Shown here one piece after another: positions 4,750-22,148 of a DNA stretch of 61,692 nucleotides (position 1 is its first letter; every line of letters begins with the position of its first letter). The notes beneath the pieces are model-generated. The model saw nothing but the letters and a program-made list of their open reading frames with translations, searched no databases and was not told where the DNA came from. Origin of the DNA: a bacterium (GTDB taxonomy: Bacteria; UBP14; UBA6098); the NCBI GenBank assembly GCA_023145965.1, contig JAGLDC010000042.1, forward strand, positions 1 to 61,692, written 5' to 3'. A program made the position numbers and the translations under genes.

Positions 4750-4790
4750 GAGGGCGTCGGCCATCTTGGCAAAAAAACCGACGCCCCCCG
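4750..4790. repeat. Palindromic repeat, short member (element A)
   Basis: Left arm GGGCGTCGG (4752-4760) and right arm CCGACGCCC (4778-4786, extended by more C to 4789) form a 9-bp stem. The inside is short: CCA-TCT-TGG makes a mini-hairpin followed by CAAAAAAA. Reading inward from the right arm on the minus strand, the border (G-run, CGTCGG, T-run, GCCAA) matches the ends of the two larger elements at 18446 and 21979. It lies about 45 bases after the bamA stop. It could help end bamA transcription, but the T-run follows the first arm rather than the stem. Confidence 0.7.
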
Positions 4791-4836
4791 AAAAGGTTGC
4801 TATTAGCAAAATATAAAATCTAGTAAAAAATATATT

Positions 4837-7200
4837 CTATTCAGGACCGATCTGGAAATGCCATTGCCAACCAGAAATTTCGTTTCTCAAATCGTCTTTA
4901 TCGAAGCCGTAACCGACATCGATGCCCATGACTCCAAGCATGGGAATGACCAATCTTACGCCCGCGCCGGCACCTCTCTTCAATTGTGAGAAATCAACAT
5001 CATCTAGGCCGCGCCATGAATTGCCCATGTCGCCAAATAACGCAATATAGAATTGGTCGCGCGAAATGGGAACTCTAAGCTCCATAGTGAGTTGGGTTAT
5101 AACTCTTCCGCCCAATCGGAAAGTTTGTTCCGGTGAGGTGAGTGGCAGTCTCCCTGATATGTCTGGTGTAGCTGAGGAGTCGTATTCGGCTTCAGAGGTG
5201 TCAATAGGAGATATGCCCCTGTCGGTATAACCGCGTATTTGACCCTCATACCCATAACTTCCGAAAAAATATCTCTCGGAATAAGGAACATCATTAGGAT
5301 CGTCATTAAAGACATTGGAGAGGTATCCAATTTTGGCCTTTCCTACAACTGTTAAATACTTGTGAAGCGGAAAATACCAGCCAGTGGAGAAATCCTGTTT
5401 TAGAAAGGAGACATTGCCGCCAAGGAAGCCTCCGGCAACCTCTACAGTATAGCTATTTCTGCTTCCTCTTGCAGCAAACATTTTGGAATCGCGCGAGTCC
5501 CGTTGAATAACCATTCTCGAAGCGGATTCCACTTGCGGCCATTCGACCTCTCTGAGATCATATTGGGAAGTAGGACTATAACTCGAGGAGAATTCGTAGT
5601 ATTTAAATTGCTCTAGTTTGTATCTCCAATAAAGGGTGAAATAATCATCTGGCCAACTTAGTCTGCGACCTAGGCGTAACGCGCCGCCGGTGCGAAGCTC
5701 TGTGTAATAATTTGACCAAACCAGCTCGGTGTTATAGATATCAAAACCAACCGTAGTCGGAACGCCCATAAACCAGGGTTCAGTAAAACTTAAAGAGATG
5801 TTTTTACGATTGGCGCCGAATTCCCATGTAAATTCGGTCTCCCAGCCTCTTCCTAACATGTTTGGCCAACCGATGGATATATTACCAACGATTTTGTCTC
5901 GAGAGTTATATGTTCCACCAATCTGGAATCGTCCGATGGGCTTTTCCTCGACTTGCATAATGAGGTCGACATCGCCGTTGGGAAGAATCTCAAAATCGGG
6001 GAGGACATCGTTAAAGTAGTTAAGATAATAGATATTGCGCACCGAGCGCATCATTTTGCTTCTTTGGAAAACCTCGTCGGGATATATTGACATCTCCCTT
6101 CGAATAACTCTATCGAAAGTGCGTGTATTTCCGGCGATCTCTATTTTGCGGACATGCGCCTCGATACCTTCATTTAAGGCAATGCTCAGCTCGACTGTGT
6201 CAGCTGTGAGTTTTCTAGTGTCTTGAACATCGGCGTAAATGTGGCCTTTTTCTTGGTAAAGAAAATAAACTTCCGCCAGGGATTCATCGAGTTTTTCACC
6301 GCTGAAGACATCGCCCTTTTCGAATCTTAACACAGCATCGATATCGTCTTCGTTGTAAATAGTATTGCCGGAGATTGCTATATCACCAAAATAATAACAA
6401 CGGCCCTCTTCGAGCCAGATATCCAGATTTAAGCGCGAATCGGTGGTGTCCGTAGTAACAGAATCTGCGAGAATATTCGCGGTTATGTAACCGTTGTTGT
6501 GATAGATATCCTCGATTTTTTCAAGGTCCTCTTGATATTTGGTCTCAGAGAATTTCCCACCTCGAAAAAAGGATTTTTGTTTTGTTTCAATCTTACGGCG
6601 AAGTTTCGAGTCGGAGAAAACCTCGTTTCCATGAAAAGCGATGTTTCCTATACGAACCTCATGGCCTTCATCGATAATGAAGGTTATATTAACTCGGCCT
6701 TTTGCTGTTTCGATTGCAGATGTTTCGATCTCGACATTGGGATAACCTTCTTCGATATAGGCTTCCTTGAGGTTTTTTACAGCATGGAAGGTTTTTTTAG
6801 GAGAGAGGAAATCATTAAGAGTAAGGTCTGCCTTTTTCAGGAGGTCTTTTTCTTTAATTGCTTTATTGTCCTCGAAAAGGATTTTAGATACTATTGGAAA
6901 CTCAACTACCTCGATCTCCAGATCGACAATATTCCCGCTTTGCGAACCACGAATAGAGACATCATCGAAGAAGCCGAGTCTATATATTTTGCGGACAGCA
7001 TCCTCGAAAACGGAAGAACCGAAGGTTCCGCCCTCCATGAGTCCCGAGGTTGTTTTAATGAGGGCTTCCGAGGTGTTATTAGTTCCGACGACATTTACCT
7101 CACCGATAACCTCAGCACAAAGTGCTTCGGTGCCTATCGCTAAAAGGATAATTACCGCTAAGAAGGTAATGAAAAAAGATTTGCTTGTTTTATAGAGCAA
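4837..7200 (-). CDS. bamA: Outer membrane protein assembly factor BamA
   Basis: 787 residues. An N-terminal hydrophobic signal ends near AEALCA (about 29). Residues ~30-415 hold repeated POTRA-type units (VGTN..., EGYPNVEI, GYITANI, KGHIYADV), and the last ~370 residues form the 16-stranded Omp85 barrel. The conserved IRGY that matches the VRGF/Y lid-loop motif is at 655-658, and the chain ends in an aromatic-alternating strand. BamA folds barrel proteins into the outer membrane, which fits the PorV-like and TamA barrels found here. It starts 4 bases after rplU, so both likely share the rplU promoter, an unusual partnership. Confidence 0.93.
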   Translation of the reverse strand: MLYKTSKSFFITFLAVIILLAIGTEALCAEVIGEVNVVGTNNTSEALIKTTSGLMEGGTFGSSVFEDAVRKIYRLGFFDDVSIRGSQSGNIVDLEIEVVEFPIVSKILFEDNKAIKEKDLLKKADLTLNDFLSPKKTFHAVKNLKEAYIEEGYPNVEIETSAIETAKGRVNITFIIDEGHEVRIGNIAFHGNEVFSDSKLRRKIETKQKSFFRGGKFSETKYQEDLEKIEDIYHNNGYITANILADSVTTDTTDSRLNLDIWLEEGRCYYFGDIAISGNTIYNEDDIDAVLRFEKGDVFSGEKLDESLAEVYFLYQEKGHIYADVQDTRKLTADTVELSIALNEGIEAHVRKIEIAGNTRTFDRVIRREMSIYPDEVFQRSKMMRSVRNIYYLNYFNDVLPDFEILPNGDVDLIMQVEEKPIGRFQIGGTYNSRDKIVGNISIGWPNMLGRGWETEFTWEFGANRKNISLSFTEPWFMGVPTTVGFDIYNTELVWSNYYTELRTGGALRLGRRLSWPDDYFTLYWRYKLEQFKYYEFSSSYSPTSQYDLREVEWPQVESASRMVIQRDSRDSKMFAARGSRNSYTVEVAGGFLGGNVSFLKQDFSTGWYFPLHKYLTVVGKAKIGYLSNVFNDDPNDVPYSERYFFGSYGYEGQIRGYTDRGISPIDTSEAEYDSSATPDISGRLPLTSPEQTFRLGGRVITQLTMELRVPISRDQFYIALFGDMGNSWRGLDDVDFSQLKRGAGAGVRLVIPMLGVMGIDVGYGFDKDDLRNEISGWQWHFQIGPE

Positions 7201-7204
7201 TATC

Positions 7205-7522
7205 TCAGGCCGTAGCTATCTCTTCGATCATCAAACGGGTGTAATCTTGTCTGTGTCCCTGTTTTTTATGGTAACCGGTGCGGCGTTTCTTCTTGAAAAC
7301 GATGATTTTGTCATCGCGGAAGTGCTCGATTACTTTGGCTTTGATAGTTGCGCCCTCGATGTTGGGTTGTCCTATGACTGGTTCATCATCGCCGGAGAGC
7401 AGAATAACATGGTCGAGGACAATTTCGTCACCGGAAGTTCTATCGGCCATAAGCGGAACTATAACGGATTTGCCGGCTTCCACCTTGACCTGTTCGCCTT
7501 TAATGTTAACTATTGCATACAT
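7205..7522 (-). CDS. rplU: 50S ribosomal protein L21
   Basis: 105 residues starting MYAIVNIKGEQ, the family's normal N-terminus; the frame's upstream ATG (7534) would add four residues and is unlikely, since GGAGG sits just before the chosen start. The C-terminal rRNA-binding signature is clear (KKKRRTGYHKKQGHRQ). L21 binds 23S rRNA domain I with L20. In most bacteria rplU is followed by rpmA (L27) and obg; here bamA follows instead and no L27 is in the window. A strong promoter is visible upstream. Confidence 0.95.
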   Translation of the reverse strand: MYAIVNIKGEQVKVEAGKSVIVPLMADRTSGDEIVLDHVILLSGDDEPVIGQPNIEGATIKAKVIEHFRDDKIIVFKKKRRTGYHKKQGHRQDYTRLMIEEIATA

Positions 7523-7559
7523 ATGTTCCTCCAATGGGTTATTTCCGTAAAACTCGAAA

Positions 7560-7587
7560 AATATATCTTTTTATTACATTAAGTCAA
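7560..7587 (-). promoter_or_regulatory. Sigma-70-like promoter for rplU-bamA
   Basis: On the minus strand TTGACT (7587-7582) and TATATT (7565-7560) are separated by 16 bases, about 38 bases before the rplU start. The match to TTGACA/TATAAT is 5/6 at both boxes. The untranslated leader of roughly 30 bases includes the GGAGG ribosome site. Confidence 0.65.
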
Positions 7588-7762
7588 TTGAATTCTTAAA
7601 TAGGTTGTTTAATTAACATCAAAGAAAAAGAACTTTGCTAAGTCTTGATTCTCGAATTTTTAGCAAACAATCTAGATTATAATTTTTTTTTACTGGCAAA
7701 GGCAAATGAATCAGCACCTTTTAATATTATCCAATTCTCGATGAATAACTATATCGAGTCGA

Positions 7763-8197
7763 TCAGATTATTTTTTCGGCTTTGATAAGTATTATTCTTT
7801 GTTCAATTTCGATCTTGTTAAGCCTCACATTCATGGCCTCTAGTTGTGCGATGTAGGCCTCACGGAGTCTTTTTTCATCGATGTTTTCATACTCAGCTAA
7901 TATGCCTTCAATCTCGTTTTCAATTTTTTGAATAATATTTTTATTTTCTTTGGCAATAGCTGTCTTGAGTTTCAATCTAAGCGATACAATCCTTTGATAT
8001 GGATGCTCATTTTCGATCTGGAGTCTTTTTTGTTTAATTTTGTCTTTTTCGTTTTCAAGTGCGATATAATCTGGGCTTTCGTTTCTGATTCTTTTTGCGG
8101 CCTGGCGTTTTTTCCGTTTGAAATATCTCCATCCACTATTGACAACAACAAAAACGACGAAAAGGGCGATAAGTATGTAGAGAAGCTGTTTGAGCAT
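7763..8197 (-). CDS. Membrane-anchored coiled-coil protein, unknown function
   Basis: 144 residues. Residues 1-22 form one hydrophobic helix, followed directly by a very basic stretch (RYFKRKKRQAAKRIR), so the bulk is probably cytoplasmic. From ~40 to the end the sequence is heptad-rich and charged (EKDKIKQKRLQIE, NKIEIEQRIILIKAEKI), predicting a long coiled coil. No family recognised. It begins 6 bases after the stop of the DUF3047 gene and is probably in the same operon. A structural or scaffolding role would be a guess. Confidence 0.7.
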   Translation of the reverse strand: MLKQLLYILIALFVVFVVVNSGWRYFKRKKRQAAKRIRNESPDYIALENEKDKIKQKRLQIENEHPYQRIVSLRLKLKTAIAKENKNIIQKIENEIEGILAEYENIDEKRLREAYIAQLEAMNVRLNKIEIEQRIILIKAEKII

Positions 8198-8203
8198 CTA
8201 GTT

Positions 8204-8845
8204 TTATTTAGTAATAACGAAGTCGTCATAATCACCGGTGACGTGTGTGGCGGTGTTGTCAGAATCAGTAAGAACAGCTATGCCTTTGGCGGTAGGTTTT
8301 GCACCGGATTCGCCAAAAAGGCTTCGGTAATCTTCGAGGACATTGCGGGATTCGCCATGCCACTCATTGAGTCCATCTTCGCCGGTTTTTATGACTATCA
8401 TCTTGGTTTTAGCAGAATAAGGAGATTCGAGAATAGTGCCAATCGGAAGAGTCTCACTCCATATATACTTGATGGTTTTGGGAATTGGAAACCCTCCAAA
8501 TAACACATAAACACCGAGAACATCATCATTGCCGGATTTGATTTTTTCGTTTGTTCCAATAGGCATCTCGATAGGGCGCCAACGCCATTTGAGTTTGGGG
8601 TAATCGGAAAGATGCCATTCCTTGTCGAAGCCGATTGTGACACTTATTTTATCGGCTGTAGCATGAAGGAACTTGTTGTTGTCCTCCTTATTAATCTTAT
8701 AAACCTTTACCATATTAGTTTTATCTTTAGACGTCCAACCTTCGGGGAATGTATTAACAGCATCGTTTTCGAAGTCGATGCTGTGTGAAATGTCAGATGG
8801 AAATGCAGCAATAGCGCAAAAGAAAAACAGAATTAATTTTTTCAT
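8204..8845 (-). CDS. DUF3047 family exported protein
   Basis: 213 residues with a short signal peptide (MKKLILFFFCAIAAFPS). The family pattern is recognisable: FPEGWTSKDK near the start, KLKWRWRP in the middle, YIWSETLPIGT, then NEWHGESRNVLEDYRSLFGE and the final AVLTDSDNTATHVTGDYDDF. DUF3047 proteins are periplasmic beta-sandwich proteins of unknown role. GGAGG stands seven bases before the ATG. The coiled-coil gene follows at 6 bases, suggesting a two-gene unit. Confidence 0.8.
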   Translation of the reverse strand: MKKLILFFFCAIAAFPSDISHSIDFENDAVNTFPEGWTSKDKTNMVKVYKINKEDNNKFLHATADKISVTIGFDKEWHLSDYPKLKWRWRPIEMPIGTNEKIKSGNDDVLGVYVLFGGFPIPKTIKYIWSETLPIGTILESPYSAKTKMIVIKTGEDGLNEWHGESRNVLEDYRSLFGESGAKPTAKGIAVLTDSDNTATHVTGDYDDFVITK

Positions 8846-8965
8846 TATAAACCTCCAAATATGCTAATTTGTGAGCAATGGACATGCCAGAGGTGGAAGC
8901 TCGAAGTAAGATAATTTTGAATATCCTCGAGACCCAAAAAACAGACGACAAGATTTTCCTATTGG

Positions 8966-9739
8966 TTAAGGATTAGGTTCCTCCCACTCTAAAAGCATTC
9001 TACGAATCATGCCGCGCGAGTAAAAACAGGCGATCTTTGAGACGAAACATGGAAAGTCGATAATTGCCGAACGATTGGCCTTGTCCGATATCGCTCGAGT
9101 AACTACAAAAGGAATATCGTGTTCGAAACAGACTTGTGCTACTGCAGCTCCTTCCATCTCGACACATAAAAGGTCGTTAAGTTCTTGTTTTAGCTGTGAG
9201 ATTATCTTATGATCGGCTACAAAATGGTCTCCGCTGGCAATCAATCCTACCTTCACTCGAGGTTTTTTTATATCGAATTGTTCGAGTATTTCGGGTTCGA
9301 TTTCATTGAAGATTTCGCTTTCGACATATTTTTTGGCCGATATCTGCATTCGCTCGATAAAGACATTATTAGCGGCAAATCGAGATATTCCTAGAAGTGG
9401 AATTTCAAATTTGTTGAATGTGGGTAACGGGCTCACGTCCATATCATGCTGAATCAGTGCTGAGGAGATGACAATGTCGCCAATCTCAAGTTCGAGATCA
9501 GCTGCACCTGCAACCCCGGTGAAAACAATACCTTCGACACCGAATCTATCGATTAAAGTCGTTGCAGTCGAGGCAGAAGCGACTTTGCCCCATCTGGAGA
9601 AGACAAGAACCACATTTTTCCCATAGAGTTTACCCGACCAATAATGGCGTTTACCTATAACGAGGTCATTATCTTGGTCGAGATCGGCTTTCAATAGGTT
9701 AATTTCTTCATGCATCGAACAAATAATGCCAAATTTCAT
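8966..9739 (-). CDS. mtnN: 5'-methylthioadenosine/S-adenosylhomocysteine nucleosidase
   Basis: 257 residues, slightly longer than the ~230 usual. It hydrolyses MTA and SAH (and 5'-deoxyadenosine) to adenine plus the ribose product, clearing inhibitors of SAM enzymes such as the RlmN encoded nearby. Key residues are visible: catalytic Glu in the N-terminal EE pair (11-12), VFTGVAGA at 72-79, the VEMEGAA substrate loop at 193-199 and catalytic Asp in AISDKAN (D219). The extra length is an insertion around 135-165 (IFNEIEPEILEQF). No partner gene is close; it stands alone between two gaps. Confidence 0.9.
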   Translation of the reverse strand: MKFGIICSMHEEINLLKADLDQDNDLVIGKRHYWSGKLYGKNVVLVFSRWGKVASASTATTLIDRFGVEGIVFTGVAGAADLELEIGDIVISSALIQHDMDVSPLPTFNKFEIPLLGISRFAANNVFIERMQISAKKYVESEIFNEIEPEILEQFDIKKPRVKVGLIASGDHFVADHKIISQLKQELNDLLCVEMEGAAVAQVCFEHDIPFVVTRAISDKANRSAIIDFPCFVSKIACFYSRGMIRRMLLEWEEPNP

Positions 9740-10095
9740 TTAGCTTTTTCCAATAATATTTTTGATTGCTCATTAATGTAAAATCCTTATTAACTTAATG
9801 TCGATTTTCAATTATACAAGCTCATTCCCAGCTTAAGGGATTCTTTCTGGTCCGTTTGCTTACTCGAAAAGATTATCAAGTTACTGAGAGAATTTGAGTT
9901 AAATAAATGCTGATTTGAAGTATAATAACAAAACATGAATATTGTGAAGTAAGTGAGGTGTTGCCGATAGTTTAATATTTAGTTCACCTTTTTTCAGAAC
10001 AATACATTCGAGTGGTCAGAGAACTCAGAGCATTGTAGCTTGATTTTCCATTTTTTTTCTCTATAAAAAGTTGCATATTGAAGTGTTATTGACAT
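9740..10095. other. Gene-free AT-rich interval
   Basis: A 356-base region between the divergently transcribed nucleosidase and flippase-like genes. I see no convincing ORF, no long inverted repeat and no RNA fold. Apart from the plus-strand promoter candidate at 10040-10067, nothing can be named. It must also hold the promoter of the nucleosidase gene. Confidence 0.6.
10040..10067 (+). promoter_or_regulatory. Candidate sigma-70 promoter for the flippase-like gene
   Basis: TTGATT (10040-10045), a 16-base spacer and TATAAA (10062-10067), 28 bases before the GTG start. No clear Shine-Dalgarno follows, so the start at 10096 stays somewhat uncertain. Confidence 0.5.
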
Positions 10096-11010
10096 GTGAA
10101 AGGATTAGATTTTTTGAACAAACAAAAATGGTATAGCTGGGCATTGGCACTTCTAGTAGTAGTGGCTGTGGGATATATGATAGCTAGGAATTTCGGAGAG
10201 CTCAGGAAATACGATTTTGATTTTCGTTGGGGTTTTATAATCCTTGCTTTATTGAGTGAAGTTTCTGCTTATTTATCAAAGTTAGTAATTTGGCAACATC
10301 TTTCGCGTTCTTATGGTCTAAAAGTGCCTTTGATAAAAGCGGGCAAAGGCTTTTTTCTCTCTCAACTTGGGAGATATATTCCGGGAAAAGTTGGTCTTTT
10401 GCTAATTCGGATGGAAACCTATCGAGAGTATTCGCGTAAGAATACAGCTATAGCGACCGGTGTAGAGATGATTTCGACAATCGGCGGGGCATGTATCTTG
10501 GTGTTAATTGGTATTATAGCGGCGGGTGAATATCTTCCTTCTTATTCGATTTGGGTTGCTTTGATTGGATTTGCTGCGGTTTTGATTTTTTTATGGCCGG
10601 GCATTTTCAAACCCCTTGCCAATTTTGGGTTTAGATTAATAAAGCGTTCTCCGATGGAGGAGGTTCCTCCTTACAGCGTAACGCTCAAGTATGTAGCTGT
10701 GTATCTTTTTCCTGGGTTGCTTCATGGTCTTGGGTTATTTATGGTTTTGTGTTCGCTTTCCCCTATAAGTTTTGCATTTTATTTGCCAATAACTTCAATC
10801 TACTTTGCTGCGGGTATAGTAGGGTTGCTTGCTGTTTTCGTTCCGGCGGGACTCGGTGTTCGAGAGGGCGTAATGATGCTCGTTTTACCGCTCATTGTGG
10901 ACAAACCTATAGTAATAGTGGGAGTCATACTCTCTCGAATGGTTTTAACATTATCGGAGATATCTTTAGCCGGCATTTTCACAGTTTTAGATAAGTTTAA
11001 TTCAAAATAG
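10096..11010 (+). CDS. Lysylphosphatidylglycerol synthase TM-domain (UPF0104) membrane protein
   Basis: 304 residues, about eight hydrophobic helices (first at 13-30). The family hallmark FLSQLGRYIPGKVG lies near 88-101, with the second conserved region GLGVREGVMMLVLPL near 255-270. These proteins resemble the flippase half of MprF and stand-alone YbhN-like proteins; many act next to glycosyltransferases or in lipid transfer. No synthetase half is fused. The start is GTG at 10096; there is no good ribosome site, and an internal TTG is possible. Neighbours give no pathway clue. Confidence 0.8.
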   Translation: MKGLDFLNKQKWYSWALALLVVVAVGYMIARNFGELRKYDFDFRWGFIILALLSEVSAYLSKLVIWQHLSRSYGLKVPLIKAGKGFFLSQLGRYIPGKVGLLLIRMETYREYSRKNTAIATGVEMISTIGGACILVLIGIIAAGEYLPSYSIWVALIGFAAVLIFLWPGIFKPLANFGFRLIKRSPMEEVPPYSVTLKYVAVYLFPGLLHGLGLFMVLCSLSPISFAFYLPITSIYFAAGIVGLLAVFVPAGLGVREGVMMLVLPLIVDKPIVIVGVILSRMVLTLSEISLAGIFTVLDKFNSK

Positions 11011-11150
11011 CAATTAATTGATAACTCATAGTTTACCGAATTGATAGTTGAAAGAAGAATCTTATTTACAAATATTCCTAGTAGAAAGTTTTTTCAGGAA
11101 ATTCCAGAGGGGGTTTTCATTTTTTAAAATTTCTTTTTAGAAAATAATGC

Positions 11151-11180
11151 TTGCATGAGTTTTAAAAATCGGTTTATTAT
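11151..11180 (+). promoter_or_regulatory. Candidate sigma-70 promoter for the lipoprotein gene
   Basis: TTGCAT (11151-11156), 18-base spacer, TATTAT (11175-11180), followed by a GGAGG ribosome site just upstream of the ATG at 11209. Confidence 0.55.
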
Positions 11181-11208
11181 ACTGATAATAAAGTTAATTG
11201 GAGGATAA

Positions 11209-12156
11209 ATGTTGAAAAACAAAGTTTCTTTTGCTTCAATTCTAGCATTATTAATTTTGGGATGTAGTTCGCTTTTTAGTTCTGGTATCTATATAGAGCC
11301 GGGAGCATCCCTGACTTATGTTCGCAAGTTTGATAGCCAAACCCCCGGCAAGCCTTTGCGCATAATAAATATTAATTCTTCACCGATGGTTTACAACATC
11401 AGTGTTGTGGCAGACGAATATAGGCTTAAAGGCTATATTCCGATGCCGGATACGAATTGGGTTAAACCAATGAAGAATGATGTAAAAGTTGAGCCTTACG
11501 ACACGGTGGATATTCCGATTATGATTTCTATCCCGGAGAGCGATGAAAACTATAATCGTGCGTGGGTATGCGAGCTTTCGGTTATGCAAAGCGCGTGGAA
11601 GGATCCTTCTATTGGAGGCAAAGCTGGAACGGTTCTCCAGTTGGGTGCCAGAGCCACGTGGTTAATCGAAACGCCATTTAAGAAGGCTTTAGCTGCTATA
11701 AACAGCGATAAGTTATCAGTTGCGCCTGCAATACAGCCGATCCAATATGGCGATAGCACGATTAACAAAGGTGAGATTTTTATCACTATTCGCAATGATG
11801 ATGAAATTGAGCACGTGTATTCACTTGAGAGTTATATCCCGAATTTCGGTGATTCTATTATCGGGAGGGTACTTGATATTTTTCCGCTGACGACTGAAGA
11901 AACCGGTTGGATACTCGACCCCAATTGGATTTGTCCTAAGAAGAAAAAGCTTTTTGGAATATTCTCAAAGAGCCCAACGATCAAATTGGGTTCTGGGGAA
12001 GTTGGTAAATACCCAATTACAATCGATATGCCGCCTTCGGAAGAATTAAACCAAAGGCAATTCGAAGGTATTATTCTTATTCGGCCCGATGGTCAAAGAG
12101 AAGATAGTCGTTTTGTTCGTTATATCATATCGCCCGGATTGGAATACAAAGAGTAG
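11209..12156 (+). CDS. Putative exported lipoprotein with beta-sandwich domains
   Basis: 315 residues. The N-terminus MLKNKVSFASILALLILGC looks like a lipoprotein signal with Cys19 as the acylated residue, though Leu at -2 is not typical; cleavage at FSSG is the alternative. The mature protein is beta-rich; residues ~25-145 have the pattern of an Ig-like or chaperone-like fold (NSSPMVYNISVVADEYR, then PIMISIPE), with a second beta unit at 180-310. No family name can be given. It is monocistronic: own promoter upstream and a strong terminator 29 bases after the TAG stop. Confidence 0.75.
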   Translation: MLKNKVSFASILALLILGCSSLFSSGIYIEPGASLTYVRKFDSQTPGKPLRIININSSPMVYNISVVADEYRLKGYIPMPDTNWVKPMKNDVKVEPYDTVDIPIMISIPESDENYNRAWVCELSVMQSAWKDPSIGGKAGTVLQLGARATWLIETPFKKALAAINSDKLSVAPAIQPIQYGDSTINKGEIFITIRNDDEIEHVYSLESYIPNFGDSIIGRVLDIFPLTTEETGWILDPNWICPKKKKLFGIFSKSPTIKLGSGEVGKYPITIDMPPSEELNQRQFEGIILIRPDGQREDSRFVRYIISPGLEYKE

Positions 12157-12184
12157 ATAGAGTAGTATTTGCTTAGAACTATTG

Positions 12185-12213
12185 AAAGCCCTTCTTTGAA
12201 GGGCTTTTTTTAT
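12185..12213 (+). terminator. Rho-independent terminator after the lipoprotein gene
   Basis: AAAGCCCTTC / GAAGGGCTTT is a 10-bp perfect stem (12185-12194, 12198-12207) with loop TTT and a run of T behind it. Confidence 0.9.
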
Positions 12214-12225
12214 AGCTGATTTTAT

Positions 12226-12254
12226 TTGACTTTTTTGCTTTTAGTGGCTATTTT
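12226..12254 (+). promoter_or_regulatory. Candidate promoter for the fol-pan operon
   Basis: TTGACT (12226-12231), 17-base spacer, TATTTT (12249-12254). A start of transcription some seven bases on would leave only about five bases before the folB ATG at 12266, which lacks a Shine-Dalgarno site; the message may be nearly leaderless. Confidence 0.5.
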
Positions 12255-12265
12255 TAATAAATATT

Positions 12266-13754: not shown

Positions 13755-13758
13755 GATA

Positions 13759-14556: not shown

Positions 14557-14561
14557 GCCCA

Positions 14562-15413
14562 ATGGAGATAATCGACAATATATCGGTAATTAGTGGAAGA
14601 ATTCGTGAGTATAAGGTTTCCGGTTTAAAAGTTGGGTTTGTTCCTACGATGGGTTTTCTCCACGATGGTCACCTTTCGCTTGTGCATAGTGCAAAAAAAC
14701 TTGCCGACAGGGTGGTTGTTTCGATTTTTGTTAATCCAACACAGTTCAGTCCAGATGAGGATTTGGACTCCTACCCTCGGGATTTCCAACGAGATGAGAC
14801 GCTTTGTTCAAACGAGGGCGTCGATATTATTTTCTATCCGACTTCCAAGGTAATGTATCCGGATAATTTTTCCACCGAAATTAAGGTTCGCGGTTTTAGT
14901 CAGCTTCTTTGCGGACGCACCCGCCCGAACCATTTCGATGGAGTTACAACTGTTGTGGGTAAATTGTTTAATATAGTTCAGCCCGATCTTGCTATTTTTG
15001 GGAAGAAAGACTATCAGCAATTAACCATCATTAAGAGGATGGCTGCAGATCTTAATTTTCCCATCGAGATTATTGGGGGTGAGACTGTCCGAGAACACGA
15101 TGGTCTTGCTATGTCGAGCAGAAACAAATATCTTACGCCTATCGAGAGAGAGGTTGCACCTGTTTTATATCGGACGCTTCTTTTTACCAAAGACAGGATT
15201 GAAAACGGCAATGCTCAGGATTCGGGTGCATTGATTAGGGTGATGCGAGACCGTATTGAGGGCAGCGGTCCGTTCGATATTGATTATATTGAGATCGTGG
15301 ATACTTCAAGCTTAAAGCCCATCGATAATCCCTTTTCGAGGGAATGTGTGATTGTTTTAGCGGCGAGACTTGGCAAGGCACGTCTTATAGATAATATAGA
15401 AGTTGGTATTTAG
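14562..15413 (+). CDS. panC: Pantothenate synthetase
   Basis: 283 residues, normal length. Joins pantoate and beta-alanine with ATP. FVPTMGFLHDGHLSLV near 27-42 contains the HxGH nucleotide motif as HDGH, VNPTQF follows at ~60, and FGKKDYQQL and MSSRNKYL are the typical downstream motifs. panD and panE are not in the window. It ends 2 bases from the convergent DUF2520 gene with no obvious terminator hairpin between. Confidence 0.95.
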   Translation: MEIIDNISVISGRIREYKVSGLKVGFVPTMGFLHDGHLSLVHSAKKLADRVVVSIFVNPTQFSPDEDLDSYPRDFQRDETLCSNEGVDIIFYPTSKVMYPDNFSTEIKVRGFSQLLCGRTRPNHFDGVTTVVGKLFNIVQPDLAIFGKKDYQQLTIIKRMAADLNFPIEIIGGETVREHDGLAMSSRNKYLTPIEREVAPVLYRTLLFTKDRIENGNAQDSGALIRVMRDRIEGSGPFDIDYIEIVDTSSLKPIDNPFSRECVIVLAARLGKARLIDNIEVGI

Positions 15414-15415
15414 CC

Positions 15416-16228
15416 TTAATTTCCTTTTCGCAAGAGCTCTCTTATTTTTTCCAATCCAGCGATGTAGATATCGAGGTTGCCTGTTTGGTTAGCGGCAATA
15501 AGGTGTTGTGCGATAGTGAGTTCGTCATTACGGACAACCGGGCCTGTAGCTCCATTTGCAAACCCGAATTTACGGAAATTCTCTATAGCTTTCTCGACTA
15601 TCGATATTGTCATGTCGATAGCGTTTTTTTTCTGAATTCCCGAATCTTCGAGGAGTTTCGAGCAAATCTCCAGAAGGGCAAAGCTGTGGTTTGCGGCAAG
15701 GCTTGCGCCAAAATGGTATCGACCTTTCGTATTACAATCGATATGGATAAACTTGCCTTCGAGGGATGTAACGAGATTTTCAGCGATATCTGAGGCTGCA
15801 AGATCGCCTTCACATCCGAAAAAGAGGGATTTGAATGGATTCTCGGTTTTCGAGATTGATGATACGCCTCCGAATGGATGTATGCAATATACTGCTTTGT
15901 CTAAGCCTGCCAGGCGAAGTATTTTCGAAGGGAGTATTCCGCTTGTGTGAAATAGAAACTTTGCGCTGAAATCGCGTAATTCGCCAAGGTGCTCACAAAC
16001 CGATATTATTGCGTCGTCGGGAACAGTTATGAATAAGATTTCGCATCGATCAACGAGTTTTTCCATCGAATCGAATACACCACATGGAGTTATACGTGCA
16101 GCCTCGGCGGAGGACTTTTCGAGTATATCATAAAAACCAACGATTCGCCATCCGTTTCTGGCAAGCCAGAAAGCCATCGCCGATCCTATTCGTCCAGCGC
16201 CTATAATGCCGATTCCCAGCGATTTCAA
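15416..16228 (-). CDS. Rossmann-fold reductase with DUF2520 domain
   Basis: About 270 residues. N-terminal dinucleotide fold (GIGIIGAGRIGSAMA) followed by a helical DUF2520 domain (HPFGGVSS, YHFGASLAANHSFALLEI, FANGATGPVVRND), related to ketopantoate or pyrroline-carboxylate reductases. I place the start at TTG 16228: AAAGGA lies just upstream across the yggS stop, and the ATG at 16300 would overlap yggS by 67 bases and add a non-homologous leader. Its convergent position beside panB-panC, with no panE visible, makes a ketopantoate reductase role worth testing, but that is inference. Confidence 0.82.
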   Translation of the reverse strand: MKSLGIGIIGAGRIGSAMAFWLARNGWRIVGFYDILEKSSAEAARITPCGVFDSMEKLVDRCEILFITVPDDAIISVCEHLGELRDFSAKFLFHTSGILPSKILRLAGLDKAVYCIHPFGGVSSISKTENPFKSLFFGCEGDLAASDIAENLVTSLEGKFIHIDCNTKGRYHFGASLAANHSFALLEICSKLLEDSGIQKKNAIDMTISIVEKAIENFRKFGFANGATGPVVRNDELTIAQHLIAANQTGNLDIYIAGLEKIRELLRKGN

Positions 16229-16233
16229 GAGGA

Positions 16234-16908
16234 TTATCCTTTGAATATAGCCGAACCGATTCGGAGATGTGTTGCACCTTCCTCGATTGCAATATTCCAA
16301 TCATTGGTCATACCCATCGAGAGAATAGGTAGTTCGTTCCCCATTTTGGAGGAAATATTATCTCTAAGCTGTTTAAGTTTTTGAAAAGCGTTTCGGATTG
16401 AGTGTTCGTCGTCTGTGAATGGAGCCATAGTCATAAAGCCCTGTAAACTTATGTTTTCGAGTTGAAGAATGCGAGAGATATTACTAGATGCCTTTATTGC
16501 ATCGAATCCGAATTTGCTTTCTTCCGCGCTGACATTAACTTCGATGAGTATTTTCTGGAGAATGTTTCTTTCGGATGCCACTCTATCGATGCGTTCCGCT
16601 AATTCGAGTGAATCTATGGAGTGTATGAGGTCGAAAGCTCCCACGGTTTTAGTAACTTTATTGCTCTGTAGGTGCCCAAACATGTGCCAGATAATGTCTT
16701 TTGGAAGGGCTTCAATTTTAATGAGTGCATCCTTGACCTTGTTTTCCCCAAAATGTCTAAGCCCTGCCGAATAAGCCTCTTCGACTCCACCGGCATCGAC
16801 ATACTTGCTTGCGGCGATGAGCGTTATTTCTTCAGGATTGCGTCCACAGTTTGCACATTGAGCGGCAATCTTTTTTCCCAGTTTCTCTATATTGCTTTTG
16901 ATAGTCAT
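16234..16908 (-). CDS. YggS/PROSC family PLP homeostasis protein
   Basis: 224 residues. A PLP-binding, fold-type III protein without known catalysis that buffers pyridoxal phosphate and affects amino- and keto-acid pools. PLP Lys is K35 in AASKYV; HFGENKV, WHMFGHLQSNK and HSIDSLELA are family hallmarks, as is SMGMTNDWNIAIEEGATHLRIG near the end (split here: SMGMTNDW, then EGATHLRIG). The yggS-then-reductase order resembles the yggS-proC pairing seen in many bacteria, here with a DUF2520 enzyme. Two bases separate it from archease. Confidence 0.9.
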   Translation of the reverse strand: MTIKSNIEKLGKKIAAQCANCGRNPEEITLIAASKYVDAGGVEEAYSAGLRHFGENKVKDALIKIEALPKDIIWHMFGHLQSNKVTKTVGAFDLIHSIDSLELAERIDRVASERNILQKILIEVNVSAEESKFGFDAIKASSNISRILQLENISLQGFMTMAPFTDDEHSIRNAFQKLKQLRDNISSKMGNELPILSMGMTNDWNIAIEEGATHLRIGSAIFKG

Positions 16909-16910
16909 AA

Positions 16911-17330
16911 TTATAAATCGAAAATAATCCTCGTGGAATATGTTTCTTTTTCGTCCTTTTTAATTTCGAGTTGGTGACATGTTACCGCTTTAATTTCGTG
17001 TAAGACTGAATATTCCGGCAGGTTTTTCTGACCGCTAACCTCCGCAACGATAAAATCGTCGGTAAATTCTCCAATATTGATACCCCGCGCGGCAAAGCCG
17101 TCTAATAAAACGAGATCAAGTATCTCGTTTAGAAAACCGACAAGAAGCAGGTCGATTTTTTTTGAGGCTTTCGATACAATTCGAATAGTTCTGCTTTCAA
17201 TTTTTGAACTATCCAATAAAATTTCAAGCATTCCTTCCGTCGCACCTCTAAAGAGTTCTTCCGGGGAGTCTGCTAAGACGGTTATTCCTATATTTGCGTC
17301 GTGGTCGATTCTATCCACAGAAAACGGCAT
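16911..17330 (-). CDS. Archease family protein
   Basis: 139 residues. Archease activates the RNA ligase RtcB by aiding guanylylation and metal loading. The fold pattern is clear: RIDHDANIGITV at the start, EELFRGATEGMLEIL, VGFLNEILDLVLL, HEIKAVTCHQLEI and a final IIFDL with the conserved C-terminal Asp. The normally conserved DHTAD motif reads DHDAN, so an Asp of the metal site is Asn here. No rtcB is in the window. Its ATG follows the mazG stop with no gap. Confidence 0.85.
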   Translation of the reverse strand: MPFSVDRIDHDANIGITVLADSPEELFRGATEGMLEILLDSSKIESRTIRIVSKASKKIDLLLVGFLNEILDLVLLDGFAARGINIGEFTDDFIVAEVSGQKNLPEYSVLHEIKAVTCHQLEIKKDEKETYSTRIIFDL

Positions 17331-18119
17331 TTAATTTTGTCTTTCCATTTTTTTGGCCTCTTCCCAAAAGACATCCATAACTTCGAGGGGTGGGCGCTCG
17401 AGCCCCTTTTCTTTAACCCTTTTTTCGACGTGCGAGAATCGCGAGGCGAATTTTCGGATTGTTTTTCGAAGGGCCATCTCGCTCGATACTTCAAGGAAAC
17501 GCGCTAGATTAGTAATCGAAAAAAGTAAATCTCCAAGTTCGGACTCGATTTCTTCTATATCCTGTGATACAATCGCCTTTTCTAATTCGGAGAACTCCTC
17601 ACGAATTTTTTCCCATACAGGTTCGATTGTAGGCCAATCGAAACCAATGCGTGAGGCTTTTTCTTGTATTCTCTGCGCAACGAGCAGCGCCGACATAGAC
17701 ATGGGTAAACCATCTAGAAGGGAGGATTTACCTCGCTTTGCCTTTTTTTCTTTCAGTTTTATTTGTTCCCATTCCTGTAAAACTTGTTCTGCAGTTTCTA
17801 GCGAAGATTCACCAAAGACATGTGGATGTCTGTTTATCAATTTCTCCACAATGCCTTTCGTTATGTCATCGATATCGAAGGCTCCACGCTCGGAAGCCAT
17901 TTTGGCGTGAAATACAATTTGCAAAAGGACATCGCCTAATTCTTCGCATAGAGCGCTGTCGTCGTGGGCTTCGAGAGCCTCGATTACTTCGTAGGTTTCC
18001 TCGATTAGATACGGCTTAGCTGAATCGTGGGTTTGTATCTTGTCCCAAGGGCATCCATTTTCACCTCGAAGTTTGTCCACAACCTCAACTAATTCAATAA
18101 AATCAGGGTGCTTGCTCAT
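17331..18119 (-). CDS. mazG: Nucleoside triphosphate pyrophosphohydrolase MazG
   Basis: 262 residues, with the two tandem MazG domains of the long form. The first has NGCPWDKIQTHDSAKPYLIEE (read as CPWD near 23, then LIEE), EELGDVLLQIVFHA for the metal-binding ExxD helix, and NRHPHVFGE; the second repeats EELGDLLFSI-like motifs as SELGDLLFSITNLARF near 210-225. It degrades noncanonical or excess NTPs. It heads the mazG-archease-yggS-DUF2520 unit. Confidence 0.94.
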   Translation of the reverse strand: MSKHPDFIELVEVVDKLRGENGCPWDKIQTHDSAKPYLIEETYEVIEALEAHDDSALCEELGDVLLQIVFHAKMASERGAFDIDDITKGIVEKLINRHPHVFGESSLETAEQVLQEWEQIKLKEKKAKRGKSSLLDGLPMSMSALLVAQRIQEKASRIGFDWPTIEPVWEKIREEFSELEKAIVSQDIEEIESELGDLLFSITNLARFLEVSSEMALRKTIRKFASRFSHVEKRVKEKGLERPPLEVMDVFWEEAKKMERQN

Positions 18120-18197
18120 TGTTCTCCAAATCTAAGATGTTGTTTCAAAATACAACATCAAAAATAAAAATCAAGTCTCGATATATCGGCTAAAGAT

Positions 18198-18222
18198 AAA
18201 AAAAGCCCGAATTACTTCGGGC
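18198..18222 (-). terminator. Rho-independent terminator of tRNA-Met
   Basis: On the minus strand GCCCGAA / TTCGGGC (18222-18216, 18211-18205) with a 4-base loop, then seven T. It lies 8 bases after the tRNA and upstream of mazG, separating the two units. Confidence 0.92.
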
Positions 18223-18230
18223 GGAATTTC

Positions 18231-18304
18231 TAGCGGCGGGGGGACTCGAACCCTCGACACGCGGATTATGATTCCGCTGCTCTGACCAACTGAGCTACGC
18301 CGCC
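18231..18304 (-). tRNA. tRNA-Met (CAT), elongator type
   Basis: 74-base cloverleaf on the minus strand. Acceptor GGCGGCG pairs with CGCCGCT (one G-U at 1-72); D arm GCTCAGTTGGTCAGAGC; anticodon stem GCGGA/TCCGC with loop ATCATAA, so anticodon CAT; T loop TTCGAGT with one A-C mismatch in its stem. The 3' CCA is not encoded. A G1-U72 pair and the standard D arm exclude the initiator. A lysidine-modified Ile2 tRNA also has CAT, so that alternative stays open. Confidence 0.95.
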
Positions 18305-18317
18305 ATTTCAAAGCCAT

Positions 18318-18345
18318 ATTATAATTCGTTCGCTATTTTTGTCAA
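18318..18345 (-). promoter_or_regulatory. Consensus promoter of tRNA-Met
   Basis: Minus strand TTGACA (18345-18340), 16-base spacer, TATAAT (18323-18318): full matches to both boxes. The -10 box ends 13 bases before the tRNA 5' end. Confidence 0.88.
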
Positions 18346-18445
18346 GGATAAAAAATTTATTAAGGCTTCAAAGTAAATCGCGCTAGTCGCTAGAATTCGT
18401 CGTTTGAGTTTTATAGCTAGTCAATGCCCCAAAAATATAGTGTTT

Positions 18446-18601
18446 CCGGGGGGCGTCGGATTTTGCAAACGCGGAAAACATGCTTTCCGCGTTTGCAAAA
18501 TTAGCGGACGGTCAAAATAAAAAAGTGGCGAATTATGCAAGATTGTCCGTTGACCGGACGCAAGCGGTAAGCCGAAGGCGCAACGCACGACGCCCCCCCG
18601 G
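18446..18601. repeat. Palindromic multi-hairpin repeat (element B)
   Basis: A 156-bp structured element in the divergent tRNA-Met/gltX gap. Outer arms CCGGGGGGCGTCG (18446-18458) and CGACGCCCCCCCGG (18588-18601) pair with one bulged C. Inside is a perfect 17-bp hairpin (18461-18477 / 18484-18500, loop ACATGC), then CGGTCAA/TTGACCG (18509-18515 / 18550-18556) that extends to GCG/CGC across a 2x2 internal loop. The left border matches the right borders, read on the minus strand, of elements at 4750 and 21979. The rest of the 505-base gap holds only the two promoters. Confidence 0.8.
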
Positions 18602-18754
18602 TGGTGCTTAACAAAACCAAAGATTCTCAAAATGGAATTATGGGATGTCTCGGTTATCTTTTTTCACGAGAAAAGGAGATAAATTTTATTGAAAAAATAA
18701 TTAGCAGGAATGAAATATAACACGCAAATCATTTCGTGAAGTCGGGTTAAGCAG

Positions 18755-18783
18755 TTGACATGGGTTTGGACGAAACTTATATT
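18755..18783 (+). promoter_or_regulatory. Consensus promoter of gltX
   Basis: TTGACA (18755-18760), 17-base spacer, TATATT (18778-18783). It is followed by AGGAGG at about 18801, well placed for the ATG at 18810. Confidence 0.85.
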
Positions 18784-18809
18784 GAATCTCAATTTTTATA
18801 GGAGGTTTT

Positions 18810-20267
18810 ATGTCGATTAGAGTAAGATTTGCACCTTCGCCAACAGGCCAACCGCATGTGGGCGTTATTCGCACGGCCATTTTCGATTGGCTTTTGGCAA
18901 GGCATTACAATGGGGAATTTATCCTAAGAATAGAAGATACTGACCGCTCACGCTATGTAGAGGGGGCGGTGGAGGAGATTATTGGTGCGCTTAATTGGCT
19001 GGGGATGGACATCGATGAAGGTCCCGAACCTATAAATGGTGAACACGGGCCTTATTTTCAAAGCGAAAGGCTAAAGCTATATTATCGATATGCCAATTAT
19101 CTCTTGGAAACGGGAAAGGCATATTGGTGTGAATGCTCCATTGAAAGGCTTGGCGAGCTTCGCGCATCTCAGGAGACCGCAAAAAAAGATATTCGTTATG
19201 ATAATCGCTGTCGTGATCTCGAACTTAATGGCCTACCGGGCGATGACAAGCATGTCCTTCGTTTTAAAATACCCGAGGGAGGAACAACGACTTTCCACGA
19301 CGAACTTCGCGGCGATATTACGGTCTTAAATTCCACACTGGATGATTTTGTTATAATAAAGCGCGATGGTTTCCCAACATACCATTTTGCAAGTTGTATC
19401 GATGACCATCACATGGCGATTAGCCATGTCTTTCGTGGTGAAGAATGGATTTCATCGGCGCCCAAGCATAAACTTATTTATGATGCCATAGGTATCGAGC
19501 CGCCGAAATTTGTTCATGTGCCTGTGATACTCGGCACAGATAAGAAGAAGTTATCTAAACGCCACGGTGCCACAAATACGCTCGATTACAAAAATATGGG
19601 ATACCTTCCAGAGGCTTTATTCAATTTCCTCGCGCTAATAGGATGGAATCCGGGCGGTGTCGAGGAGATTCTTCCCAAGGAAAAGCTTATTGAGGCCTTT
19701 TCAATCGATAGAATTAACACATCCGCCGGGGTATTCGATATAGAAAAGCTCAACTGGATGAACGGTGCTTATATTCGTGCAATGAAGATCGAAGAACTTA
19801 CAGAGAGATTGAAACCCTTCATGGCTGAATGGGGTTGGATAGGCGCGAACTGGGAACCGATGGGTGAAGCCTATGTCAAATCGGTAGTCAGTTTAATGCA
19901 AGAGCGCTTAGCCCGCCTTGTCGAGCTTAAAGAAAGGGCATTTTATTTCTTTGAAGAGATCGAAGGTTACGAACCAAAAGGTGTGAAGAAGAGCTTCAAA
20001 GGCGAGGATATAATAGATCGCTTAAGAGCTGCTCACATAGCGCTTTCAGATTGTGATTTCACTCACGATGGCCTCGAAGCTGCAATTCGTGGCGTGGCCG
20101 AAGTGTTTGAAGTTGGTGCTGGGAAGATTATTCATCCTATAAGATTGGCGGTAAGTGGTATAACAGCAGGCCCCAGCCTTTTTGAGATGCTCGAACTTTT
20201 AGGCCAAGAAAGAGTATTAGAGCGTGTAGAATGCGCGATACAGTGGTTGCAAGAAAACAAGCGGTAG
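18810..20267 (+). CDS. gltX: Glutamyl-tRNA synthetase
   Basis: 485 residues. Charges tRNA-Glu. Class I catalytic motifs: PSPTGQPHVGV near 9-19 (HIGH box as HVGV at 16-19) and KLSKR at 247-251 (KMSKS box). LRIEDTDRSRYVEGAVEEI is typical of bacterial GluRS. Because a GlnRS gene lies 2 kb away, this enzyme is probably discriminating (tRNA-Glu only). The ATG follows AGGAGG. The gene has its own strong promoter. Confidence 0.96.
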   Translation: MSIRVRFAPSPTGQPHVGVIRTAIFDWLLARHYNGEFILRIEDTDRSRYVEGAVEEIIGALNWLGMDIDEGPEPINGEHGPYFQSERLKLYYRYANYLLETGKAYWCECSIERLGELRASQETAKKDIRYDNRCRDLELNGLPGDDKHVLRFKIPEGGTTTFHDELRGDITVLNSTLDDFVIIKRDGFPTYHFASCIDDHHMAISHVFRGEEWISSAPKHKLIYDAIGIEPPKFVHVPVILGTDKKKLSKRHGATNTLDYKNMGYLPEALFNFLALIGWNPGGVEEILPKEKLIEAFSIDRINTSAGVFDIEKLNWMNGAYIRAMKIEELTERLKPFMAEWGWIGANWEPMGEAYVKSVVSLMQERLARLVELKERAFYFFEEIEGYEPKGVKKSFKGEDIIDRLRAAHIALSDCDFTHDGLEAAIRGVAEVFEVGAGKIIHPIRLAVSGITAGPSLFEMLELLGQERVLERVECAIQWLQENKR

Positions 20268-20430
20268 AACTGATATTTGTAGTCTTAATAGGATATTGAA
20301 AAGCGAGGTTTCTGCAGAATAAAAGATACTTGAGATGCTTTTGAATTAAACGATAGTAATTGTTTAATTGTCTTCAGATGTTCTTATTGGTCCGGTTTCA
20401 AGGGTATCAAGCTAATGTGTTAGTGAAGTT

Positions 20431-21672
20431 TTACTTTGGTGATCTGTTTTCTGTAAGCTTATTATAAAGCTCGAGAGCGCGCTTTTTTAGAGCCTCGAAT
20501 GAAAATTCTATCGACCTTTCTTTAGCGGCCTCACCAAGCCGGATTCTTAAGTCTTCGTTTGTTATTAAAAGTGAGATAGCTAGAGCAAGGTCCTCGACGA
20601 AAGTGGCGTAATCTGTTAACTTGATTTTTATTCCACATTCTTCGGTCACTGAGATCGATGGTCCTCCGTAATCCGCAACTATCAGAGGAAGCCCCAGAGC
20701 CATACCTTCGAGGACGGCTGTCCCACCGGGTTCGCGTATTGCAGGATTACATAAAATATCCGAATTTGCGACGATTTCCAGAGTTTCTTTTCGTGGTATT
20801 TTCCCTAGAAAACTAACGCGATTCGATAACCCATATTTAGCGGAGTGGCGTTCACACTTGGAGCGAAGAGGGCCATCACCGAGAATTTTTACATCGATTG
20901 CGTTCCATACTTGTGGACGCTCTTTTTTTATTTTTCCTAGCGCATCGATTAGCATGGTAATACCTTTAATTGCAATCAATCTTCCGCAAAAAACCAATTT
21001 CACTTTTTCTGAATGGACTTTTGGGACAGGTTTCAATTCTTCCTCGATCGATGTATCAAATATATAACGGACTTTATTATGCACCTCCACAGGAATAATA
21101 GGCATAATAAATTTTGTGCCGGCGATAATTGCCGAGGAGCATTTAAGGTAGTTTTTGAAAGTCTTTTTGTATTTCAAAGAAATGTGAAATAGAGATCTTA
21201 ATTTTGAACTAAGCAAAGCGTTCAGATTAAAAGCCTTGCTAAATCCTGGTGGTGTTTTGAGCCCTCCACCAATGGGTCCGATCAAATAAGGAATATCGAT
21301 TTTCTTATAAATATTATTGTATGTGTGTATTCCTGCCGGGGTAACAAAGTGTATAAGGGATATTTTTTTTTTGTGGCACAGTTCAAGAAGTATGGGAGTT
21401 AGTTGTTTTATGAAGGTTCTGTTCAACGTTCCGAAGAGTTTTAATTTGAAAAGAAATTGCCGTAACAAAGGGTTTATTTCAATATAGTGAAATTTAACAT
21501 TGGGACCGTAATCGAAATCCTCGATTGCATCTTTGTTGATAGATAGAGTGAAGACTTCGACATAAAAATCCGAGGATATTGCCCTAAGCCACATATGCCC
21601 AACATGGGCCTCGGAACCCCATAGAGGATTTAGGTCAAAAGCTATGAAAGCTATTTTCTTCATAACCCTCAA
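20431..21672 (-). CDS. Family GT4 glycosyltransferase
   Basis: 413 residues with GT-B fold. N-terminal Rossmann half begins KKIAFIAFDLNPLWGSEAHVGHMW, read here only as a start pattern (FDLNPLWGSEAHVGH). The C-terminal half has VKLVFCGRLIAIKGI near 225-240, KILGDGPLRSKCER near 265, and the E-x7-E donor-binding motif REPGGTAVLEGMA near 335. It probably adds a sugar to an envelope glycan from a nucleotide-sugar donor; acceptor unknown. Start is ATG 21672 or 21663; both are possible. It stands alone, convergent with gltX. Confidence 0.88.
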   Translation of the reverse strand: MRVMKKIAFIAFDLNPLWGSEAHVGHMWLRAISSDFYVEVFTLSINKDAIEDFDYGPNVKFHYIEINPLLRQFLFKLKLFGTLNRTFIKQLTPILLELCHKKKISLIHFVTPAGIHTYNNIYKKIDIPYLIGPIGGGLKTPPGFSKAFNLNALLSSKLRSLFHISLKYKKTFKNYLKCSSAIIAGTKFIMPIIPVEVHNKVRYIFDTSIEEELKPVPKVHSEKVKLVFCGRLIAIKGITMLIDALGKIKKERPQVWNAIDVKILGDGPLRSKCERHSAKYGLSNRVSFLGKIPRKETLEIVANSDILCNPAIREPGGTAVLEGMALGLPLIVADYGGPSISVTEECGIKIKLTDYATFVEDLALAISLLITNEDLRIRLGEAAKERSIEFSFEALKKRALELYNKLTENRSPK

Positions 21673-21978
21673 TCTAATCGACTCACCATATTAAGTCAAG
21701 CGATGAAGCAAAAGACTGTATAGCTTTGCTTTATTACTAGGTTAGTGGATATTCAATTAGAATAAGCTTATTTTCAGCCAAATGGCCTTTTTCCTTTAAT
21801 AAATGATTACACTGAAAGGAAAAATGCGGTTTTTGTGTATCGAGGTTCCATGAACGGGCTTGAGAAAACATATGCCAATATTCACGGGATCTGACTACCC
21901 AATAATATTTCCTTGCAATGAAGGCTGTATAACTCTCAGCTCATGGAATAATCGAGCTGGATTTGAAAAAACATTATA
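21673..21978. other. Gene-free interval before element C
   Basis: A 306-base stretch between the start of the minus-strand glycosyltransferase gene and the repeat at 21979. I find no ORF with a ribosome site and no hairpin of note; it should contain the glycosyltransferase promoter. Confidence 0.6.
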
Positions 21979-22148
21979 GGGGGCGTCGGGGCTATGATTT
22001 TCGGGAAGCACGCTTCCCGAAAATCATAGCTACCTGCAGGTCGGAGCAAGCTTGCTGGATTAGGGTTAATTTTTGGCCGACCTGCAGGTGATTTCTTTGC
22101 CAAAAGGAAAGTGAACTTTCCTTTTGGCAAAGAAATTCCGACGCCCCC
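21979..22148. repeat. Palindromic multi-hairpin repeat, large member (element C)
   Basis: A 170-bp element upstream of glnS. Outer stem GGGGGCGTCGG (21979-21989) with CCGACGCCCCC (22138-22148), 11 bp, perfect. It encloses three hairpins: an 18-bp perfect stem (21991-22008 / 22013-22030, loop CACG); a 13-bp perfect stem ACCTGCAGGTCGG (22032-22044 / 22077-22089) whose loop holds the 12-bp palindrome AGCAAGCTTGCT; and a 21-bp perfect stem (22091-22111 / 22116-22136, loop TGAA). Almost every base pairs. No ORF lies inside. Confidence 0.9.

Follow-up and report, generated by a model that had tools for sequence, protein, structure and literature searches.

Three elements, A, B and C, in a 61,692-nucleotide stretch of bacterial DNA (hereafter the window; lineage UBP14, UBA6098) are members of a previously unlisted family of ~150-bp DNA elements. 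Our preferred explanation, which we hold with moderate confidence, is that they form a non-coding, non-autonomous, palindromic family of REP/BIME/MITE-like character but new architecture (about 130-170 bp), which is copied in trans, whose palindromes are kept by DNA-level arm correction and/or selection, and which so far is confined to a single family within the UBP14/'Zixiibacteriota' group. The window comes from a 2.5-Mb genome (G000), and the family was followed in two congeners, G001 ('Zixiibacteriota' SpSt-1142) and G002 (UBP14_UBA6098), and in one genome of a sister genus (G003).

A dispersed family with a common four-stem plan

The original prediction held that A, B and C share their terminal arms, and indeed GGGGGCGTCGG/CCGACGCCCCC is perfect in C and differs at one position in A and at one in B. 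Within the window the case against chance is modest, with 6 arm sites at one mismatch or fewer against 2.2 expected, a number reached by 1 of 100 shuffles; the genome-wide arm count and the pairing of the arms are decisive. The exact 10-base arm GGGGCGTCGG occurs 21 times in the genome and its reversed control not once, and the exact arm sites are nearly all paired, ~140 bp apart. As far as exact arms go, these sites fall in short elements and none in a longer unit. The proposed common border of ~25 bases was overstated: TTTGCCAA/TTTGCAAA is present in A, B and C but absent from the other copies read, and the TTTGCC/AA border is thus no family feature. Shared beyond the arm are the A/T-rich positions (ATTT) at the base of the long side hairpin.

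Folded singly, a typical copy forms four stems: one that closes the element, two side hairpins and, between these, a middle stem whose open loop measures 31-35 nt. The closing-stem consensus GGCGTCGG/CCGACGCC is invariant and the stem spans 7-12 bp, while the side hairpins are usually unequal in length and sequence, C being nearly symmetric. As single-stranded DNA, B, C and A all fold far better than their shuffles (z values below), and a copy in single-stranded or cruciform form can adopt a four-stem cross. The features in the window are as follows (CM, covariance model).

4750..4790, unstranded: element A, an arms-only family remnant, closing stem with a 17-nt loop (CM 26 bits, E 0.004; DNA fold z -4.2)
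18448..18598, minus strand: element B, a full copy with four stems (CM 117.5 bits, E 5.5e-26; DNA fold z -8.0)
18448..18459, unstranded: left arm of B, GGGGGGCGTCGG, closing stem
18460..18501, unstranded: long A/T-based side hairpin of B, tip GGAAAACATGCTTTCC (DNA fold)
18504..18561, unstranded: middle stem of B, GCGGACGGTC / GACCGGACGC, its tip with a 38-nt unpaired region at 18514-18551 (DNA fold)
18564..18586, unstranded: short G/C-rich side hairpin of B, imperfect (DNA fold)
18587..18598, unstranded: right arm of B, ACGACGCCCCCC, one mismatch against the left arm
21979..22148, unstranded: element C, a full, nearly symmetric copy (CM 94.5 / 93.5 bits on the two strands; DNA fold z -16.7)
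21979..21989, unstranded: left arm of C, GGGGGCGTCGG
21990..22031, unstranded: side hairpin 1 of C, 19-bp arms with 2 nt between
22032..22089, unstranded: middle stem of C, ACCTGCAGGTCGG / CCGACCTGCAGGT, 32-nt loop at 22045-22076
22090..22137, unstranded: side hairpin 3 of C, 22-bp perfect arms, tip GGAAAGTGAACTTTCC
22138..22148, unstranded: right arm of C, CCGACGCCCCC

Sizes of 41, 151 and 170 bp hold for A, B and C. The interiors had been read as modular hairpins gained or lost between fixed ends, and this is borne out in part, in that a stem of the middle-arm type with a ~33-nt loop replaces a tight side hairpin in some copies; the changes are not arbitrary, however, B and C following one four-stem plan and A being a remnant of it. 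The mixed orientation likewise stands in part: B lies clearly on the minus strand, but placing it opposite to A and C goes too far, A and C scoring almost equally on both strands in the covariance model.

Element A, whose left arm carries its one change (GAGGGCGTCGG), lies 47 nt off the 3' end of a BamA/Omp85 gene (4837-7200, minus strand). Element B occupies the divergent region between a MazG gene (17331-18119, minus strand) and a GltX-like synthetase gene (18810-20267, plus strand). Element C precedes the GlnRS gene (22270-23973, plus strand) by 120 nt, and the 5' side of that gene carries an element in both congeners too (3 of 3 species); the stem equivalent to the middle stem of C reads GCAGGTCGG/CCGACCTGC in the sister genus. 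A 98-aa open reading frame (4304-4600, minus strand) is found between element A and ABC transporter genes.

The covariance model recovers ~28 full copies in G000. A wider model gives 46 matches in G000, 97 in G002, 82 in G001 and 25 in G003, counts that pool both strands and so exceed the copy numbers, which we estimate at ~28 for G000, 50 or more each for G002 and G001, and about 16 for G003. The search of the genome and its relatives thus yielded many further copies, and a dispersed family with fixed ends and variable cores, free of any attached transposase, is confirmed in four genomes; neither an absence of further copies nor a series of single-stem terminators describes what was found. 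The covariance model detected no element in 13 other genomes of the phylum (one of the same family, 80% complete, and 12 others), and the range so far is one family of the UBP14/'Zixiibacteriota' group. An Rfam scan of the window returned only a tRNA and nothing over A, B or C, and viral contigs scanned with the arm pair gave no match. Arm matches outside the group fall mostly in G/C-rich genomes (Streptomyces and others), have interiors that by eye lack side hairpins, and are read as chance.

Each genome has its own sequence dialect of the element. The middle stem hardly varies within G001, and the unpaired loop is highly variable there; a role of the 33-nt loop as a hypervariable guide or spacer is made less likely by the likeness among G001 loops, 54% against 37% when shuffled, with weakly conserved loop ends.

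Pairing is kept in DNA

The shape of the element is conserved while its letters change, pairing being kept as the stem sequence turns over. Double changes affect 26 of 50 pairs in a MAFFT alignment of ten copies, in which no model was used and which is the fairer basis for covariation, and 46 of 50 in a second, model-fitted alignment of 62 model hits from three genomes, a few of them reverse-strand hits of a near-symmetric copy already in the set. In this larger set, 94.9% of cells are paired, a share that sliding the partners by 1-3 columns lowers to 41-48%, and the covariation score is 0.637 against 0.164 when shuffled. The 2971 stem cells comprise 92.9% Watson-Crick pairs, 2.0% G.T and 1.4% A.C, and the single internal mismatches, read on the gene-coding strand, number 14 G.T against 10 A.C. 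A wobble pair becomes an A.C mismatch when the opposite strand is read; wobble is rare, and equally so on either strand, and therefore pairing is kept in DNA and not in RNA. The side-hairpin arms of G001 provide an example, with about 12 outer-arm sequences and 29 of 30 exactly matched.

Template switching inside hairpins is a known maker and keeper of perfect stems (PMC8794818). By such a route, a mutation in one arm could be copied to the other within the hairpin, with selection acting in addition on the folded form. Arm correction and selection on folded DNA would lead to a similar outcome.

Copies near gene ends and their turnover

In the window's genus, the copies read all lie between genes. 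Within co-directional gaps, 42 of 52 copies are nearer to the 3' end of the upstream gene (42:10; p 9e-6). The median distance of copies is 39 nt from 3' gene ends and 116 nt from 5' gene ends. Orientation relative to transcription is near even (23 same, 29 opposite), and of 89 classified copies 19 are found in divergent gaps. Among genes that have an element off their 3' end, a type IX sorting domain is encoded in 14 of 89 cases, against 21 of 543 other genes in the same stretches (p 9e-5), 3 of the 14 being one orthologous site; the enrichment is not significant (p 0.11) when the comparison is made with genes whose 5' end is the one next to an element (8 of 100).

Filled and empty sites were compared across species by searching the proteins that flank G000 copies in the two congeners and then reading the stretches, and both kinds were found. 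Ten G000 copies occupy the same gene end as a congener copy, and at L110 an element lies between the same two convergent genes in all three species. Empty sites with both neighbours kept are seen at L104 (a 62-nt gap in G002) and L119 (a 53-54-nt gap in G001 and G002), and many sites are filled in one species only. Same-site copies mostly differ in sequence and follow the dialects of their respective genomes; therefore either their contents have been replaced or the sites have been reused. No pair of intergenic copies in the window's genus is young enough to display a clean insertion. Against our preferred explanation, several gene ends are occupied in more than one of the species, in two or in all three, which could also mean old, functional, vertically kept sites.

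We consider it possible, though rather unlikely, that the family is a structural or regulatory chromosome element, serving either as a binding site of the REP/BIME kind or to end transcripts from both directions, held in position by selection on both the sequence and the shape of the stems and with mobility rare and incidental. The closeness of the copies to gene 3' ends, the ten gene ends shared with congeners and the almost invariant middle stem of G001 beside its highly variable loop would all be expected of such an element, yet it fits poorly with the copies between divergent genes, with the replacement of most same-site copies by another dialect and with the many sites filled in single species. 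Nor is the layout that of an intrinsic terminator, having four stems instead of one and no T-tract.

Gene order breaks at the element in L120/L229, L115/L248/L093 and L106/L086, which is suggestive only. In G000 (L120) a single element stands between adjacent SAICAR synthetase and RecD-like genes, which in G002 (L229:727-6491) are split by OTCase and Mg-chelatase/ComM-like genes with an element on each side. A gene cassette between two elements was considered for this locus and set aside, the enclosed genes being ordinary, in favour of an ordinary rearrangement near elements. Separately, G001 copies (L093-L171) carry the motif GATTTTC ... GAAAATC at a fixed 15-20 nt outside both arms, which is seen in G001 only, and a second short G001 repeat, CGCAACCCCCGTGCCAGCG..., is often found beside elements or gene ends (L095:2291, L097:4479, L161:4600 and others). 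Nested empty sites sought by way of this second repeat (CGCAACCCCCGTGCC...) gave no clean empty copy.

Transposase and target-site signatures

The suggestion that the elements might be mobilised by a RAYT elsewhere in the genome did not hold up, and we regard a REPIN/BIME served by the Y1_Tnp protein of G000:C80 as improbable. A Y1 (HUH) gene is present in every carrier genome, as a single copy (two in G002), and the elements do form an inverted hairpin pair whose two outer ends each bear a tag-like CGTC; but the gene sits in a conserved operon with no element or palindrome beside it, and is also present in G004, G007, G010 and G011, all of which are without the element. The CGTC/GACG ends, moreover, are fully paired within the closing stem and not displayed as an unpaired tag, no unpaired GTAG-type tetranucleotide accompanies the arms (GGGGGCGTCGG), and the side hairpins do not represent a single REP in duplicate. 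In G000, the gene (C80:26769-27101, L178) encodes a single-copy protein of 133 aa beside a TPR-like membrane protein gene, the same neighbour as in G003, and looks like a domesticated transposase.

Classical MITE-like behaviour, also proposed, was not seen either: flanking direct repeats of at least 6 nt occur in 10 of 100 cases against 8.8 in a swapped-flank control, and no transposase is attached to the elements. The stems and loops do not fit the CGTC-tagged REP layout (an 8-9-bp stem beginning AT, a 4-5-nt loop and a CCA tail), and the attC core RYYYAAC ... GTTRRRY is absent from the arms, which read GGCGTCGG/CCGACGCC.

Copies inside sorting domains of a sister genus

In G003, 12 of the 13 loci read carry the element in frame inside the coding sequence of a C-terminal type IX sorting domain (Por_Secre_tail, PF18962/TIGR04183). 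The host proteins are otherwise different (peptidases, a nucleotidase, an amidase, an FG-GAP protein), and 2 of the 12 in-gene copies have shortened reading frames. The middle loop encodes the sorting-domain motif (E)IFD[IL]TGRLV, and loci L048, L257-L260 and L262-L266 (about 1411-1765) give the consensus GVGATxRSQGQVGLEIFDITGRLVADLPxxRTES...SVRxPT. Sorting-domain genes number more than 100 per genome in most of these genomes, whether elements are present or not.

Two neighbouring G003 genes share a block of ~215 bp around the element that is 98-99% identical between flanks only about 45% alike. The block begins 7 nt before one arm and extends some 38 nt past the other. The shared block is direct evidence of recent copying between genes, in one case, although the copy could reflect gene conversion between sorting domains and not transposition.

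Intergenic loops resemble the sorting-motif loop by 4.5-5.5 standard errors above shuffled in G002, 2-4 in G001 and 0-2 in G000, depending on orientation. This likeness between sequences, in loops that are partly palindromic, is only suggestive of a common origin with the sorting motif. We give little credence to the bolder proposal that the elements are selfish DNA recognised by shape, with an open loop of ~33 nt that originated in the conserved IFD.TGRLV codons of type IX sorting domains, may pair with them and guides copying into sorting-domain genes, as seen in the sister genus, the intergenic copies being descendants that keep a faint likeness to the motif; if true, it would describe a structure-guided copy-in element aimed at a protein-export tag. 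A family of structured non-coding RNA genes, for which very strong covariation, a fixed architecture and the many, probably transcribed copies just downstream of genes might speak, is highly improbable given that wobble is nearly absent and no commoner than A.C, that orientation to genes is near even, that Rfam gives no match and that the G003 copies are protein-coding.

Discussion

Returning to a family that is copied in trans, we propose that spread would occur by a process acting on folded DNA, for which the copying agent may be a replication-linked copying event, recombination or, as a candidate, a single-strand recombinase. Copies would then persist near gene 3' ends, where they presumably disturb least and may stabilise or end transcripts, and in the sister genus the element would have become coding sequence of type IX sorting domains. 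The question raised is which enzyme copies folded DNA without target duplication. In this family nature offers a clean example of perfect stems that have diversified with no wobble intermediates and equally on the two strands, and it can therefore be used to test template switching in DNA against selection on RNA as the keeper of hairpins. It also shows that in the sister genus no fewer than ten exported proteins, different in other respects, have accepted a palindromic repeat into their coding sequence, and it supplies a precise model with which a poorly sampled bacterial group can be searched.

Integron attC sites have sequence-variable stems, as do the present elements, and are recognised by their folded shape, as these may be; unlike attC sites, the present elements have no RYYYAAC/GTTRRRY core, have four stems and not one, and have ordinary housekeeping genes, not cassettes, between copies. 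The Rickettsia palindromic elements in genes similarly place palindromic DNA in frame within unrelated proteins, whereas here this is confined to the sister genus, always involves a type IX sorting domain, and has the open loop coding for IFD.TGRLV. MITE-like repeats (Correia/NEMIS, ERIC, bcr1, Nezha) resemble the family in being 100-200 bp long, non-autonomous, strongly folded and mostly intergenic, with terminal inverted repeats, but here there is no target duplication and, among exact-arm sites, no end shared with a longer unit, and the interior is conserved in shape and not in sequence.

The RAYT-associated, GTAG-tagged REP/BIME/REPIN elements are likewise dispersed, extragenic, palindromic inverted hairpin pairs near gene 3' ends, and they too lack target duplication and form vertical, lineage-specific families (PMC3116915, PMC8266576). 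The present elements differ in their length of about 150 bp, their common closing stem, their third stem with a ~33-nt open loop and their unequal side hairpins, in having neither an unpaired GTAG nor a linked RAYT, and in a turnover of stem sequence during which pairing is kept. CGTC-tagged REPs, which include dRS3 and Rickettsia RPE-4/RPE-6, come close, with CGTC at their ends, often as inverted dimers, with no dedicated transposase and with some copies in genes. Their units, however, measure only 20-40 bp, have stems of 8-9 bp that open with AT, and carry a CCA tail (Di Nocera et al. 2013, PMC3733652), whereas here the CGTC is paired inside the closing stem, which is 7-12 bp long and one of four stems in the unit. 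Given these differences in stem size, tag, target duplication and transposase, we call the family a member of none of these classes and a new variant near REP/BIME/MITE elements and CGTC-tagged REPs.
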